NCBI RefSeq assembly: GCF_002001045.1
Contig: NZ_MUNR01000012.1
Location: 372,001-436,000 of the forward strand
From: Rhodanobacter sp. C01
Lineage (GTDB): Bacteria; Pseudomonadota; Gammaproteobacteria; Xanthomonadales; Rhodanobacteraceae
Direction of reading: 5' to 3'
DNA: 64,000 nucleotides
Shown: one piece after another, positions 18,797 to 22,925 of the stretch
Layout: the number at the start of each line of letters is the position of its first letter
How positions within the stretch are numbered: the first letter of the stretch is position 1
Notes under the pieces: generated by a model
Told to the model about the DNA's origin: nothing
The model's database searches: none
The model's input: the letters and a program-made list of their open reading frames with translations, nothing else
Translations under genes and position numbers: made by a program

Positions 18797-18824
18797 TTGA
18801 CAGCTCAAAACATGGTGTTATAGT
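18797..18824 (+). promoter_or_regulatory. Strong sigma-70 promoter of the YtrA/ABC operon
   Basis: Consensus TTGACA (18797-18802) and TATAGT (18819-18824) are 16 bp apart, 42 bases before the first ATG. It is one of the best promoters in the window. The operator overlaps its -10. Confidence 0.85.
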
Positions 18825-18837
18825 TCACTACAACACC
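18814..18837. promoter_or_regulatory. YtrA-type operator, GGTG-N16-CACC
   Basis: Inverted repeat GGTGTTATAGT-TC-ACTACAACACC pairs at 10 of 11 positions and overlaps the -10. From memory, GGTG-N16-CACC is a site reported for YtrA-family GntR regulators in Xanthomonas. Since the regulator is encoded in this operon, autorepression is the natural reading. Confidence 0.75.
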
Positions 18838-18866: not shown

Positions 18867-19208
18867 ATGAAAGCGCAAAAACTGATCGCCAGCGTCGCCG
18901 CCGTCCTGTTCACCACCGCCACTCTCGGCGTCCTGAACTACAACGTCGCCAGCCAGCAGGCAGCGAGTACCGAAATCAATGGCATCAAGGTCATCAACCT
19001 GGCGCCGATCAATGTCCACCCCAGCGCCGAAGAACAGCGCGCCGCCGCGTTGCTGGCCGATGTCGGCGCTGCCGGCCTCGCCGTGATCCCGAGCATCGGC
19101 CGCCTGAGCGGCACCGGCAGCACGGAACAGTTCAGCCTGGTCAGGTCCCAGCTGGCCATGCCCTACTATTCGTTTGGCAACAAATTCGGCAGCACCAGCA
19201 AGGAATAA
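18867..19208 (+). CDS. Small exported protein of the YtrA operon
   Basis: This 113-residue protein starts MKAQKLIASVAAVLFTTATL, a hydrophobic segment at about residues 5-24 that acts as signal peptide or membrane anchor. The remainder is soluble, with INGIKVINLAPINVHPSAEE and a Ser/Gly/Thr-rich end, no cysteine and no known domain that I can name. It has the best ribosome binding site in the window, AAGGAGG six bases before the ATG, right after the consensus promoter, so expression should be high when derepressed. It is the first gene of the GntR/ABC operon and ends 3 bp before the regulator. It may be a substrate or sensor of the ABC system; that is inference. Confidence 0.75.
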   Translation: MKAQKLIASVAAVLFTTATLGVLNYNVASQQAASTEINGIKVINLAPINVHPSAEEQRAAALLADVGAAGLAVIPSIGRLSGTGSTEQFSLVRSQLAMPYYSFGNKFGSTSKE

Positions 19209-19211
19209 AAC

Positions 19212-19586
19212 ATGACCATCACCTGGAACGACAGCGTCCCGATCTATCGCCAACTGCACCAGCGTGTGGTGGCGATGATCCTGGACGGCGCCTTGAACGA
19301 GGGCGACCCGCTGCCGTCGGTACGCCAGGTGGCAGCGGATTTTCAGATCAATCCGCTGACCGTCTCGAAGGCGTACCAGGAACTGGTCGACGAACAACTG
19401 GTTGAAAAAAGGAGGGGTTTAGGCATGTTCGTCATCGAGGGCGCCCGCGAGGCGCTGCTGAAATCCGAACGCGAGCGGTTCCTGCGCGAAGAGTGGCCGA
19501 CGCTGTTTGCCCGGCTGCAACGACTTGGGCTGGATCTAAAGACGCTGCTGCGCGAAGCCGGCACGGACAAGGAGGAGCAGTCATGA
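19212..19586 (+). CDS. GntR-family repressor, YtrA subfamily
   Basis: The 124-residue protein is a short GntR: a winged helix at residues ~8-75 (PLPSVRQVAADFQINPLTVS, then KRRGLGMFV) and a brief helical dimerisation tail instead of a large ligand domain. That size and the directly following ABC ATPase define the YtrA subfamily, which usually represses its own operon and is released by cell-envelope or peptide-antibiotic signals. The stop overlaps the ATPase start by 4 bp. Its likely operator lies upstream of the operon at 18814. Confidence 0.92.
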   Translation: MTITWNDSVPIYRQLHQRVVAMILDGALNEGDPLPSVRQVAADFQINPLTVSKAYQELVDEQLVEKRRGLGMFVIEGAREALLKSERERFLREEWPTLFARLQRLGLDLKTLLREAGTDKEEQS

Positions 19587-20440
19587 GCGCGGTGATCACA
19601 GCCAACGGCCTGAGCAAGCGGTACAAGAATGCGCTGGCACTGGACAACGCCAGCTTCCAGATTCCTGCCGGGCGCATCGTTGGCCTGATCGGCCCCAACG
19701 GTGCCGGCAAGACCACCGCGCTGAAGGCGATCCTCGGCCTCACCGATTTCACCGGCGAGCTCAACGTGCTCGGCTTCGACCCGCGCAAGCAACGTGACAG
19801 GCTGATGGGCGAGGTCTGCTTCATTGCTGACGTAGCGGTACTGCCACGCTGGATTCGTGTACGCGAAGCAGTCGATTTCGTCGCCAACGTGCACCCGCGT
19901 TTCGATCGCAAGAAGTGCGAGGCGTTCCTGGCCCGCACCAAGCTGCAGTCCGGCCAACGCGTGCGACAGATGTCCAAGGGCATGATCGTGCAGCTGCATC
20001 TGGCACTGGTCATGGCGATCGACGCCAAGCTGCTGATCCTGGACGAGCCGACGCTGGGCCTGGATATTCTCTACCGCAAGCAGTTCTATCAGAGCCTGCT
20101 GGAAGACTACTTCGACGAGAACAAGACGATCATCGTCACCACCCATCAGGTCGAGGAAGTCGAGCACATCCTCACCGACCTGATGTTCATCCGCGACGGC
20201 AGGATCGTGCTGGATGCCGATATGGATGCGATCGGCGAACGTTTCATTGAAGTGCTGGTGAACGCCGACAAGGCCGAGGCTGCGCGCCAGCTGAAACCAC
20301 TCGATGAACGCCAGGTCTTCGGCAAGAGCATTTTTCTGTTTGACGGCGCGAACCGCGCAACGCTGGAACAACTTGGCGAAACCCGCCGGCCATCCATCAG
20401 CGACCTGTTCGTCGCCACCATGAAGGGAACCTACGCATGA
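19583..20440 (+). CDS. ABC transporter ATP-binding protein
   Basis: The 285-residue ATPase has Walker A GPNGAGKT at 37-44, a degenerate signature QMSKGM near 129-134, Walker B LLILDEPTLGLD near 150 and the switch histidine in VTTHQVEEVEH. It resembles YtrB and other exporters of the CcmA/NatA class. The SKGM signature is the form common in YtrB-like ATPases. ATG 19583 overlaps the regulator stop, and its own stop overlaps the permease start (ATGA), so the three are translationally coupled. Substrate unknown. Confidence 0.93.
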   Translation: MSAVITANGLSKRYKNALALDNASFQIPAGRIVGLIGPNGAGKTTALKAILGLTDFTGELNVLGFDPRKQRDRLMGEVCFIADVAVLPRWIRVREAVDFVANVHPRFDRKKCEAFLARTKLQSGQRVRQMSKGMIVQLHLALVMAIDAKLLILDEPTLGLDILYRKQFYQSLLEDYFDENKTIIVTTHQVEEVEHILTDLMFIRDGRIVLDADMDAIGERFIEVLVNADKAEAARQLKPLDERQVFGKSIFLFDGANRATLEQLGETRRPSISDLFVATMKGTYA

Positions 20441-21405
20441 AAACCTTCTATTGGCTCGTGAAGCGCGAGTTCTGGGAACACCGGGGTGGCTTCTTATGGG
20501 CTCCGGTCATTACCGGCGGTGTGTTTTTGCTGCTGAACATCATGGGCATCATCACCGCCGAGGTACTCGGTGCCAGCCACGGCATCAATTTCGGTGCCAG
20601 CGGTGGTCTGCACAGTGTCATGGCCGACATGGACTCCGGCGATATGAGCAAGGTCGGGTTCGCACTGGACATCGCGATGTACTCGGCGATGGGCTTGCTC
20701 GCCGTGGTGCTTGGCTTCGTGGTGTTCTTCTATTGCCTCGGTGCACTGTATGACGACCGTCGTGATCGCAGCATCCTGTTCTGGAAGTCGCTGCCGATCT
20801 CCGATACCAGTACCGTGCTGTCCAAGATCGTCAGCGCCACCGTGCTTGCTCCGGTTTTCGCCGTCATCGTGGGCATCGTCGTCGGCATACTGCAATTGCT
20901 GATACTGGCAGTAACGCTGTCGTTCCATGGCGTGAATGTGTGGCATTTGCTGCTCATGGCCCATCCCTTCCGCGTCATGTTCAACCTGATCGGCTATATC
21001 CCGCTGTACGTGTTTTGGGCGCTACCTTCGGTGGGTTGGCTGCTGCTCTGCTCGGCCTGGGCACGCAGCAAGCCGTTCCTCTGGGCAGTTGCGCTGCCGG
21101 TTGCCACCGGCCTGGTGATCAGCTGGTTTGGCCTGATGGGGCTGTTCGATCTGCCGACCACCTGGTTCTGGAAGAACGTCGTGCAGCGCGGCTTGTTCAG
21201 CACGTTTCCTGGCACCGGCAGCCTGTTCGGCACGAGCAGTGAATCCATCGGCCACGACGTCGCCGGCGACCCGAACCTGGACTTCATGAATCTGACCAAC
21301 ACCTACCATCTGCTGGCTTCGCCAAACCTGTGGGTCGGCGTGGTGATTGGATGCGGGTTGCTGGCAGGCGCCATCTGGTTCCGCCGCTGGCGCGACGACA
21401 GCTGA
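20437..21405 (+). CDS. ABC transporter permease
   Basis: The 322-residue inner-membrane protein begins MKTFYWLVKREFWEHRGGFL and has about six hydrophobic segments with a larger extracytoplasmic stretch around residues 240-290 (PGTGSLFGTSSESIGHDVAG). It is an ABC-2 type permease by topology and context, pairing with the ATPase just upstream. The family exports lipids, peptides or drugs, or acts in envelope stress. No sequence feature fixes the cargo. Confidence 0.88.
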   Translation: MKTFYWLVKREFWEHRGGFLWAPVITGGVFLLLNIMGIITAEVLGASHGINFGASGGLHSVMADMDSGDMSKVGFALDIAMYSAMGLLAVVLGFVVFFYCLGALYDDRRDRSILFWKSLPISDTSTVLSKIVSATVLAPVFAVIVGIVVGILQLLILAVTLSFHGVNVWHLLLMAHPFRVMFNLIGYIPLYVFWALPSVGWLLLCSAWARSKPFLWAVALPVATGLVISWFGLMGLFDLPTTWFWKNVVQRGLFSTFPGTGSLFGTSSESIGHDVAGDPNLDFMNLTNTYHLLASPNLWVGVVIGCGLLAGAIWFRRWRDDS

Positions 21406-21437
21406 CATCCGGCCGAACTCAAATGGGGAGAATATTG

Positions 21438-22157
21438 ATGAAAACCAACGCGACCGCCATCGGCATTCTTGCAACGGCGCTGCTGTTGCCACTGACAGCC
21501 TGCAGCCAGTCAGGGCAGGACAACAACCAACCACGCGCTGCCAGCGACATGGCGCAGGCAGCGAAGGAAGTTCAGGAACAGACCTCCTCGTCGGTGATTG
21601 CCGCTGAGGTCCGCAAGGGGATCGAGCAAGCCAAGCAGGAGCTGGTCACCAAGGACATCGACGTGGGCAGCGTACACATCAATGGCAAGGGCTGGCACGG
21701 CAGGGACGACAACAGCGAACTGCCCAAGGCAGTCATCACTCCGCAAGGCGAGCTGGTAATCGCCGGCAAGCCGGTGCAAGCCACACCGGAACAGCACACC
21801 ATGCTGGTGGATTACCGCCAGCACATCATCGGCATCGCCGAGGCTGGCATGGACATCGGCGCCAGCGGCGCGGACATCGGCGTCACTGCAGCCAAGCAGG
21901 CGATCTGGGGTGCGCTCAGCGGCAAGAGCGACAAGGAGATCGAAGCGAGCATCAAGCCGCAAACCGACAAGATCGAGGCTGCCGCCGCAAAATTGTGCCA
22001 ACGACTGCCCGACTTGCTGTCCACGCAGCAGAAACTGGCCGCGGCGATGCCCGAGTTCAGGCCCTACGCCACCATGCAGCAGAAGGACGTCGATGATTGC
22101 GGCAAGGACATGGCCGACAAGAACGGCAAGAAAGGTTTTGCGGTGTCCTCCAATTGA
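21438..22157 (+). CDS. DUF2884 (YggN-like) lipoprotein, copy 1
   Basis: The 239-residue precursor has a signal peptide with lipidated Cys22 (LLLPLTAC). The body has the DUF2884-like block ITPQGELVIAGKPVQATPEQ followed by a helical part (YRQHIIGIAEAGMDIGASGA), and a C-terminal CQRL...DVDDC cysteine pair. YggN-type proteins are periplasmic with no proven function. GGGGAG precedes ATG 21438. It lies 32 bp behind the permease and is probably cotranscribed with the ABC genes. A second, shorter paralogue follows. The family call is from motif memory. Confidence 0.75.
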   Translation: MKTNATAIGILATALLLPLTACSQSGQDNNQPRAASDMAQAAKEVQEQTSSSVIAAEVRKGIEQAKQELVTKDIDVGSVHINGKGWHGRDDNSELPKAVITPQGELVIAGKPVQATPEQHTMLVDYRQHIIGIAEAGMDIGASGADIGVTAAKQAIWGALSGKSDKEIEASIKPQTDKIEAAAAKLCQRLPDLLSTQQKLAAAMPEFRPYATMQQKDVDDCGKDMADKNGKKGFAVSSN

Positions 22158-22306
22158 ACCGGGAGGCCAAAGATCTCGCGGACGGCGCATCCCATCCTGC
22201 GGAGCCTTGGCCTCAAGTAGAAGTTTCAGGCCGGCTGCAGTGCCGCCGCCGACGCGACGGCAGCTGCTGCCACCCCGCCCACGTTATCCAACTGGAGCAT
22301 GTCTTG

Positions 22307-22870
22307 ATGTCTTACCAACGCATGATCGGGTTGCTCGCGATGACCGCTCTGATAGCTGGTTGCGGCAAAGAATCCGGCAGTACCAATGTCATCAGCTTTC
22401 GCAGCGGCAGCATGGTCAACGGCGGCATCACCTTGCGGAATGATGAAGTCACCCTGCACGTCCAAAGCACACCGGATGCCGTCATCAATGCCGCAGGTGA
22501 CCTGAGCATTGATCAGCGCTCGACTACCGTCAGTGCGGCCCAACGTGCACTGCTGCAGGATTACTACCACAACGTGCTGGCGGTTAATGAACACGGCATC
22601 CTCACCGGCAAGGCCGGCGCGGCGATTGCCGGTCAGGCGATCAAGAGCGTCGTCAAAGGTATTGCCAGCGGAGATACCGACAGCATCGACAAGGACATCA
22701 ATGCCAAGTCACGGAAGGTGACGCAGGAAGCCTTGAAGATCTGCCGGGACCTGGCCAACATCAAGACGGCGCAAGACAGCCTTGCCGTGCAGCTCGCTGC
22801 ATTCAAACCCTATGCTGGCATTATCAAAGCCGACAACCTCACCGATTGCACAAGCGACTCCAAGAACTGA
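22307..22870 (+). CDS. DUF2884-like lipoprotein, copy 2
   Basis: The 187-residue precursor carries a signal peptide and a lipobox LIAGC with Cys19. It is paralogous to the preceding gene: INAAGDLSIDQRSTTVSAAQ lines up with ITPQGELVIAGKPVQATPEQ, and CRDL...AFKPYAG...LTDC lines up with CQRL...EFRPYAT...VDDC. The copy is about 50 residues shorter, mostly in the N-terminal mature part. The 149-bp gap to copy 1 contains a possible hairpin (GAGGCCAA 22163 / TTGGCCTC 22207). It ends at a strong shared terminator with fumC. Confidence 0.75.
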   Translation: MSYQRMIGLLAMTALIAGCGKESGSTNVISFRSGSMVNGGITLRNDEVTLHVQSTPDAVINAAGDLSIDQRSTTVSAAQRALLQDYYHNVLAVNEHGILTGKAGAAIAGQAIKSVVKGIASGDTDSIDKDINAKSRKVTQEALKICRDLANIKTAQDSLAVQLAAFKPYAGIIKADNLTDCTSDSKN

Positions 22871-22887: not shown

Positions 22888-22925
22888 GAAACGACAACGG
22901 GTGCCGCGGCACCCGTTGTCGTTTC
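22888..22925. terminator. 38-bp perfect palindrome, shared terminator
   Basis: GAAACGACAACGGGTGCC and its complement flank a GC centre. It separates convergent DUF2884 and fumC genes and gives GTTTC ends on both strands. Confidence 0.88.

Follow-up and report, generated by a model that had tools for sequence, protein, structure and literature searches.

A conserved, probably self-repressed YtrA-type ABC transporter operon with a seemingly overlooked first gene in Rhodanobacter sp. C01

We analysed a 64,000-nucleotide stretch of the Rhodanobacter sp. C01 genome (contig NZ_MUNR01000012.1, positions 372,001 to 436,000 of the forward strand; hereafter the window), in which six plus-strand genes between positions 18,867 and 22,870 probably form a single operon, encoding a small exported or membrane protein, a YtrA-subfamily GntR regulator, the ATPase and permease of an ATP-binding cassette (ABC) transporter and two DUF2884 lipoproteins. 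The YtrA subfamily is defined by features that include a much reduced C-terminal domain and a single long palindrome before an operon with ABC genes (PMC4494728). In Bacillus subtilis, the gene of a 45-residue peptide, YtrG, precedes ytrA (PMC12772383, PMC8060467), and the ytrGABCDEF operon resembles the Rhodanobacter locus in that a small gene immediately precedes ytrA, YtrA acts as repressor, and ABC genes are accompanied by a lipoprotein gene, whereas it differs in encoding two ATPases along with three more subunits and in its lipoprotein, which is of another type; the arms of the B. subtilis YtrA operator are 13 bp apart (PMC4730234), against 2 nt in the window. Closer in lineage, HpaR1 (XC_2736; PMC8995066), a studied global regulator of Xanthomonas, is reported to repress its own gene and to occur in nearly all Xanthomonadales, Xylella lacking it (PMC8546981); at gumB, whose promoter has a 16-bp spacer, its footprint extends from -21 to +10 (PMC4730234), and no signal is named for it in the available parts of the papers cited here. 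An operon combining Toastrack, ABC ATPase, permease, GntR and DUF2884 genes is also in print, with DUF2884 suggested as a solute-binding partner (the phage-shock-protein survey, PMC11237479); like the window it unites a GntR regulator, an ATPase, a permease and a DUF2884 lipoprotein, but it has a Toastrack gene, and the part of the survey available to us does not mention a small first gene. Another GntR-ABC operon, in Acinetobacter, comprises an activator and a substrate-binding protein (PMC13104710).

An earlier note, made from the letters of the window alone, had presented these six genes as one locus of a kind not described as such. Its genes and coordinates hold on re-check, and the features of the locus are as follows.

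18797..18824, plus strand: sigma-70-like promoter, TTGACA, 16 nt, TATAGT (pattern scan, 11 of 12 matches)
18814..18837, no strand assigned: 24-bp palindromic operator GGTGTTATAGTTCACTACAACACC, the predicted YtrA site, overlying the -10 element
18867..19208, plus strand: gene of a small exported or single-span membrane protein (113 amino acids (aa); C-terminal MPYYSFG motif; AGGAGG upstream; without Pfam family)
19200..19205, plus strand: Shine-Dalgarno sequence of ytrA, AAGGAA, within the final codons of the small-protein gene
19212..19586, plus strand: YtrA-subfamily GntR regulator (124 aa; PF00392, 54.4 bits against a cut-off of 27)
19583..20440, plus strand: ABC transporter ATPase (285 aa; PF00005, 77.4 bits against a cut-off of 25)
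20437..21405, plus strand: ABC-2-type permease (322 aa; PF13346 slightly under the cut-off)
21438..22157, plus strand: DUF2884 lipoprotein 1 (239 aa; PF11101)
22307..22870, plus strand: DUF2884 lipoprotein 2 (187 aa; PF11101)
22888..22925, no strand assigned: 17-bp hairpin (-33.7 kcal/mol, z -6.5; without a long run of T), a probable terminator separating the operon from the convergent gene that follows

The operon is real and conserved and belongs to a known kind, YtrA-ABC, but its small first gene seems to have been overlooked. The claim that such a module had not been described holds only in part: a GntR/ABC/DUF2884 operon is printed in PMC11237479, and the regulator is probably HpaR1, a studied protein. 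For the small protein, our literature search, the original HpaR1 paper lying outside it, found no description of a small protein heading this operon in Xanthomonadales.

Conservation was assessed in 147 genomes from 26 genera of the window's own family (f1), for which 60 loci were fetched from all genera and joined with the window to give 61, and in 60 further loci from ten other families of the order, for a total of 121 loci in 11 families. The order ytrA, ATPase, permease is kept in 61/61 family f1 loci, ATPase and permease follow ytrA in all 121, and a palindrome matching that of the window precedes the same genes in all 121, weakly in 14. The conserved core hence consists of operator, small protein, YtrA, ATPase and permease; since its gene order and operator are kept over 121 loci, the arrangement is beyond chance, and the proposal of one locus is borne out. 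YtrA was detected at an E-value of 1e-12 or better in 243 of 250 genomes of the order, and relatives of the permease occur in 144/147 family f1 genomes. The locus is an ancient operon of the membrane-transporter type, probably self-repressed, in a soil bacterium.

The regulator has the hallmarks of the YtrA subfamily, with an N-terminal GntR winged helix matched through residue 74, a C-terminal part of 50 residues (about 50 being typical of the subfamily) and an operon with ABC genes behind one long palindrome; its closest solved chain is 3tqn (113 aa). Operator and promoter overlap in the window, and this geometry recurs among relatives. At least four of the six TTGACA positions are matched 16 nt before TATAGT or TATACT in 61/61 family f1 loci (at least five in 59), and the operator matches at 20-24 of 24 positions in every one of them, against 13-16 for the best other same-strand place per locus. 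Of 174 named relatives 80 were listed, the majority from Rhodanobacter and Dyella and others from Frateuria, Luteibacter and Fulvimonas; 79 of these 80 have an operator match of 20-24/24, the remaining one being clipped by a contig end; in the ten other families, the best operator-like match reaches 17-24/24 in all 60 loci. The regulatory anatomy is well supported, and the operator overlying the -10 element is the predicted binding site of YtrA. Clp was considered at this site and tentatively set aside, as its putative motif GTGT(N15-N20)ACAC (PMC6430473) does not fit the spacing of 14 found here.

We regard the regulator as probably orthologous to HpaR1 of Xanthomonas. Both share the YtrA subfamily, autorepression (predicted for the window), a dyad over the -10 element, a 16-bp spacer, similarity to the gumB site and order-wide occurrence, whereas a global role, both activating and repressing, is ascribed to HpaR1 and the window's genome has one perfect operator site, at the window locus, plus one with two mismatches. 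The 31-nt gumB site printed as a putative HpaR1/Clp site in Table 1 of PMC6430473 agrees with the 31-bp footprint described in PMC4730234 in its length and -10 element, and we took the two to be one and the same; it is identical to the window operator at 17/24 positions, a value that none of 20,000 shuffles reached. In genus g67, probably Xanthomonas, two of five genomes contain an exact copy of a 21-nt piece of the gumB site, and the other three contain it with two mismatches; it stands before a Poly_export gene in the one g67 genome examined, and each of the five has one YtrA match at E 1e-20.

Sites outside the locus were sought genome-wide. At least one site within three mismatches occurs in 143/147 family f1 genomes, most counts being as expected from a single palindrome, whereas a reversed-pattern control gave zero in all 147 but one; the ten other genomes of the window's genus have one match per strand, again as from a single palindrome. 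Fourteen second-site loci, chosen among the matches listed, were read. Seven of them, each from a different genome of genus g5 (L337-L341, L345, L350), have an operator-like site 18-19 nt before an HlyD-type adaptor-like gene (identified by Pfam in two of the seven), with similar promoter geometry, so that the regulon may have grown in this genus. Published data are in the same spirit, acrA being raised 3.21-fold in an X. campestris hpaR1 mutant (PMC6430473, Table 1). In the same table XC_2740 is raised 13.84-fold; its number would fit the DUF2884 gene of the same operon, for which it is an unconfirmed candidate. Six further loci from two genera (L343, L344, L346-L349) have weaker YtrA-like palindromes upstream, at a distance, of cytochrome-c-like genes (Pfam on one), and the fourteenth turned out to be a main locus. 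The second site of the window's own genome (C6:465117, two mismatches) was given no weight as a regulon member, as no clear target was seen nearby by eye in L161.

We favour reading the locus as an autorepressed envelope-maintenance exporter operon, in which a YtrA/HpaR1 operon found across the order takes its Rhodanobacter form, and hold this to be reasonably probable. Repression by YtrA we infer from the geometry, its conservation and the published negative autoregulation of HpaR1: YtrA dimers would occupy the 24-bp palindrome over the -10 element of the sole promoter seen and keep the six genes low. Disturbance of the envelope, probably of the inner membrane or of lipid-linked precursors, would release YtrA, whereupon ATPase and permease would be made and form, by analogy with their families, a homodimeric ABC-2 exporter through which a lipophilic or peptide substrate would leave the inner membrane. 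The small protein, anchored in the inner membrane or secreted across it, may be a partner of the exporter or a sensor, as its constant place suggests, and the two lipoproteins, probably of the outer membrane, may act as periplasmic accessories. The function, signal and substrate so outlined are ones we infer, and the envelope theme comes from the company that the operon keeps: the operator-like site before the HlyD-type gene in g5, a PspA/IM30 gene after the YtrA-ABC permease in one family f7 locus (L330:5304-6035) and Toastrack-like genes in 16/24 family f2 loci (by profile; the three tested pass the DUF4097 cut-off). The Toastrack profile, built from three f2 proteins and liable to miss distant members elsewhere, found the gene in 0/61 family f1 loci, the window's included; a Toastrack gene adjoining the window's locus was searched for and not found, and three DUF4097 genes lie elsewhere in its genome.

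Several observations weigh against this reading. The promoter pattern occurs once, against a mean of 1.1 in shuffles of the region, and is not significant alone. Outside family f1, the operator reaches only 17-19/24 in 14/60 loci, close to the 13-16 background (measured in f1 loci), and the -35 hexamer has at most three of six TTGACA matches in 26/60. The operator of g67 agrees with the gumB site at only 15/24 positions. HpaR1 also activates genes, so that repression alone is too simple an account. The permease scores 24.2 bits with PF13346 (ABC2_membrane_5), under the cut-off of 25, and the direction of transport and the substrate are guesses. In addition, a consistent role of the B. subtilis ytr operon in antibiotic survival was not confirmed by a recent study (PMC12772383).

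The 113-residue protein, which the earlier note had placed at the head of the operon, proved to be a true and conserved part of the locus. It has no Pfam match, and its single NCBIfam match is far below the cut-off (13.8 bits vs 140). Taking as criteria at least 60 codons, an N-terminal hydrophobic stretch and a position between operator and ytrA, a small open reading frame (ORF) was found in 119/121 loci, directly before ytrA as in ytrGABCDEF; on the opposite strand, the same test passes in 16/61 family f1 loci and 3/60 others. The two loci that fail are L289 (79 aa, hydrophobicity 1.42, ending PYYSF) and L302 (an 82-aa ORF farther upstream). By sequence, the protein was found in 93/147 family f1 genomes, a figure that is an underestimate; all 16 fetched loci missed by tblastn carry in this slot an ORF ending PYYSF or PYYAF. 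With starts placed after the operator, P-Y-Y lies near the C terminus in 60/61 family f1 loci, the remaining one having PYDAF. The ratio of non-synonymous to synonymous substitution rates (dN/dS) against eight relatives is 0.25-0.82, compared with 0.02-0.11 for YtrA, which points to a real but fast-evolving protein under purifying yet loose selection. The N terminus is positive in 116/119 small proteins, a lipobox occurs in one, and AxA follows in 60, so that the protein may be cleaved or may stay anchored. The structure model is unreliable over its whole length, with a predicted local distance difference test score (pLDDT) of 57, a predicted template-modelling score of 0.20 and a pLDDT of about 60 for the N-terminal helix. 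In genera g11 and g12 (L116, L117, L118; 2680-2907), a second, shorter small-protein-like ORF without the C-terminal motif stands between the operator and the full copy.

The C-terminal domain of YtrA proteins is much reduced, and the place of the small protein makes it a concrete candidate for the signal input of HpaR1/YtrA: its slot is order-wide, it is predicted to lie on the same autorepressed message, and it would be translated just before the repressor. That it is the missing sensor itself, a secretion-monitoring nascent chain or membrane sensor whose hydrophobic N terminus probes the state of the inner membrane or of the Sec machinery while its fixed C-terminal motif sets the amount of repressor, we nevertheless think quite unlikely. 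In a narrower version, to which we give still less credence and rate as very unlikely, the protein would act as a nascent chain with a regulatory role, like SecM, VemP or MifM: its N terminus would engage the Sec/YidC machinery, and failure of export would stall the ribosome at the aromatic motif and cover the ytrA ribosome binding site, so that YtrA drops and the exporter operon is released; if true, it would supply a signal to a repressor almost without ligand domain. Such a chain would fit a protein that ranges from 68 to 164 aa among the 119 loci but keeps its motif at a distance of 7-12 residues from the C terminus in 61/61 family f1 loci, and whose body is variable and fast-evolving while MPYYSF is invariant across 33 aligned sequences. 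It would likewise fit the stop codon, at most 12 nt from ytrA in at least 93/119 loci, and the ytrA Shine-Dalgarno sequence, which is recognisable in 58 family f1 loci and in 53 of them falls within the small-protein gene; the family's C-terminal lysine-glutamate is at least in part this Shine-Dalgarno sequence itself. However, ordinary translational coupling accounts for this overlap, a tail contacting the permease would be conserved too, and to our knowledge the protein carries no known arrest motif. The pattern also weakens outside family f1, where the aromatic motif is found in 34/58 loci and, of the 36 loci whose Shine-Dalgarno sequence can be recognised, 20 have it within the gene; over all 119 loci the motif is aromatic in 93, families f8 and f10 ending differently. 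Alternatively, the small protein could be the precursor of a membrane-active peptide that the exporter carries as its cargo, just as staphylococcal Pmt carries phenol-soluble modulins; the Pmt system shares with the window a GntR-type regulator and an ABC ATPase. The small gene opening the operon would suit this, as would the best NCBIfam match of the ATPase, PmtA (141.3 bits), and the second-best of the regulator, PmtR (54.1 bits, behind PdxR at 59.9), but both Pmt scores are far under the curated cut-offs (350 and 200), so that neither protein qualifies for the Pmt family. The Pmt exporter has two ATPases and two permeases, against one of each in the window. The N-terminal segment, moreover, resembles a Sec signal or anchor, for which the Sec route suffices, and AxA in 60/119 proteins does not amount to a common cleavage site; we regard the cargo reading as highly improbable.

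The favoured reading of an exporter operon further supposes that the DUF2884 lipoproteins work with the exporter. That they are instead read-through neighbours, with an envelope role of their own and no working tie to it, is in our view unlikely, though it deserves more weight than the alternatives for the small protein. As the earlier note had it, both are DUF2884 lipoproteins, the first only 32 bp behind the permease: they exceed the PF11101 cut-off of 30.6 (42.2 and 46.5 bits), with lipoboxes read as LTAC and IAGC, C22 of the first being invariant and C19 of the second nearly so. The linkage that the note had staked its proposal on is found in relatives, as tblastn places a DUF2884 relative downstream of the permease in 45/61 family f1 loci and the profile does so in 22/24 family f2 loci; DUF2884 is not a constant member, there being no tblastn match in 16/61 family f1 loci and no profile match in the 36 loci of the nine other families. 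The profile, built from family f1, may miss distant members elsewhere, and some loci end early downstream (L285, L321); with a position rule it counts 43/61 family f1 loci, leaving out the tblastn matches L096 and L102. This patchiness is what read-through would predict, as are the faster evolution of DUF2884 genes, where present, than of ATPase and regulator (eight relatives compared) and the presence elsewhere in this genome of a third DUF2884 gene, remote from the operon (G000:C14:79722-80348, L155; Pfam 64.3 bits, above both window copies). Against it stand the short gap, the absence of a hairpin terminator from both gaps, and the repeated presence behind this operon of a family that is seldom detected in the class, reaching E 1e-5 in 4/185 genomes, three of them from this order, by a threshold harsh enough that the window's own copies barely pass. 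DUF2884 is thus a facultative addition to the operon, which narrows its possible roles.

Relatives of DUF2884 lipoprotein 1 occur in 96/147 family f1 genomes. Its fold model (mean pLDDT 73.7) combines an extended helical part with a small region of strands; Foldseek gave no match in the PDB at E 0.001 or better, and a profile search gave three weak matches of no use among PDB sequences. We know of no link between the DUF2884 protein YggN of Escherichia coli and a YtrA-ABC operon. Like the window lipoproteins, YggN is a putative periplasmic protein (PMC11510482).

The genes of the operon are tightly packed. The earlier note had given 4-bp overlaps for the repressor, ATPase and permease genes, and ATGA overlaps do join YtrA to the ATPase and the ATPase to the permease; ytrA starts 3 bp past the stop codon of the small-protein gene without overlap. 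The gap between the two DUF2884 genes is 149 bp. A pattern scan found no terminator-like site in the intergenic gaps of the operon and two weak ones inside the permease gene (20469-20516, plus strand); over both strands it returned seven, against 3.5 in shuffles, and it lacks the 22888..22925 hairpin because this has no long T run. A structure between the two DUF2884 genes was rejected as a terminator, being within the shuffle range (17/200 shuffles equally good). Upstream, an azoreductase-like flavodoxin gene lies 350 bp off (Pfam, NCBIfam), and the convergent downstream neighbour is, by its sequence, presumably fumarate hydratase. In some relatives the downstream genes are of beta-lactamase-like, GDSL lipase, DUF4386 or DUF6326 type. 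One genus has two tandem permease genes (L115:3503-5454), which share 57% and 60% identity with the permease of the window.

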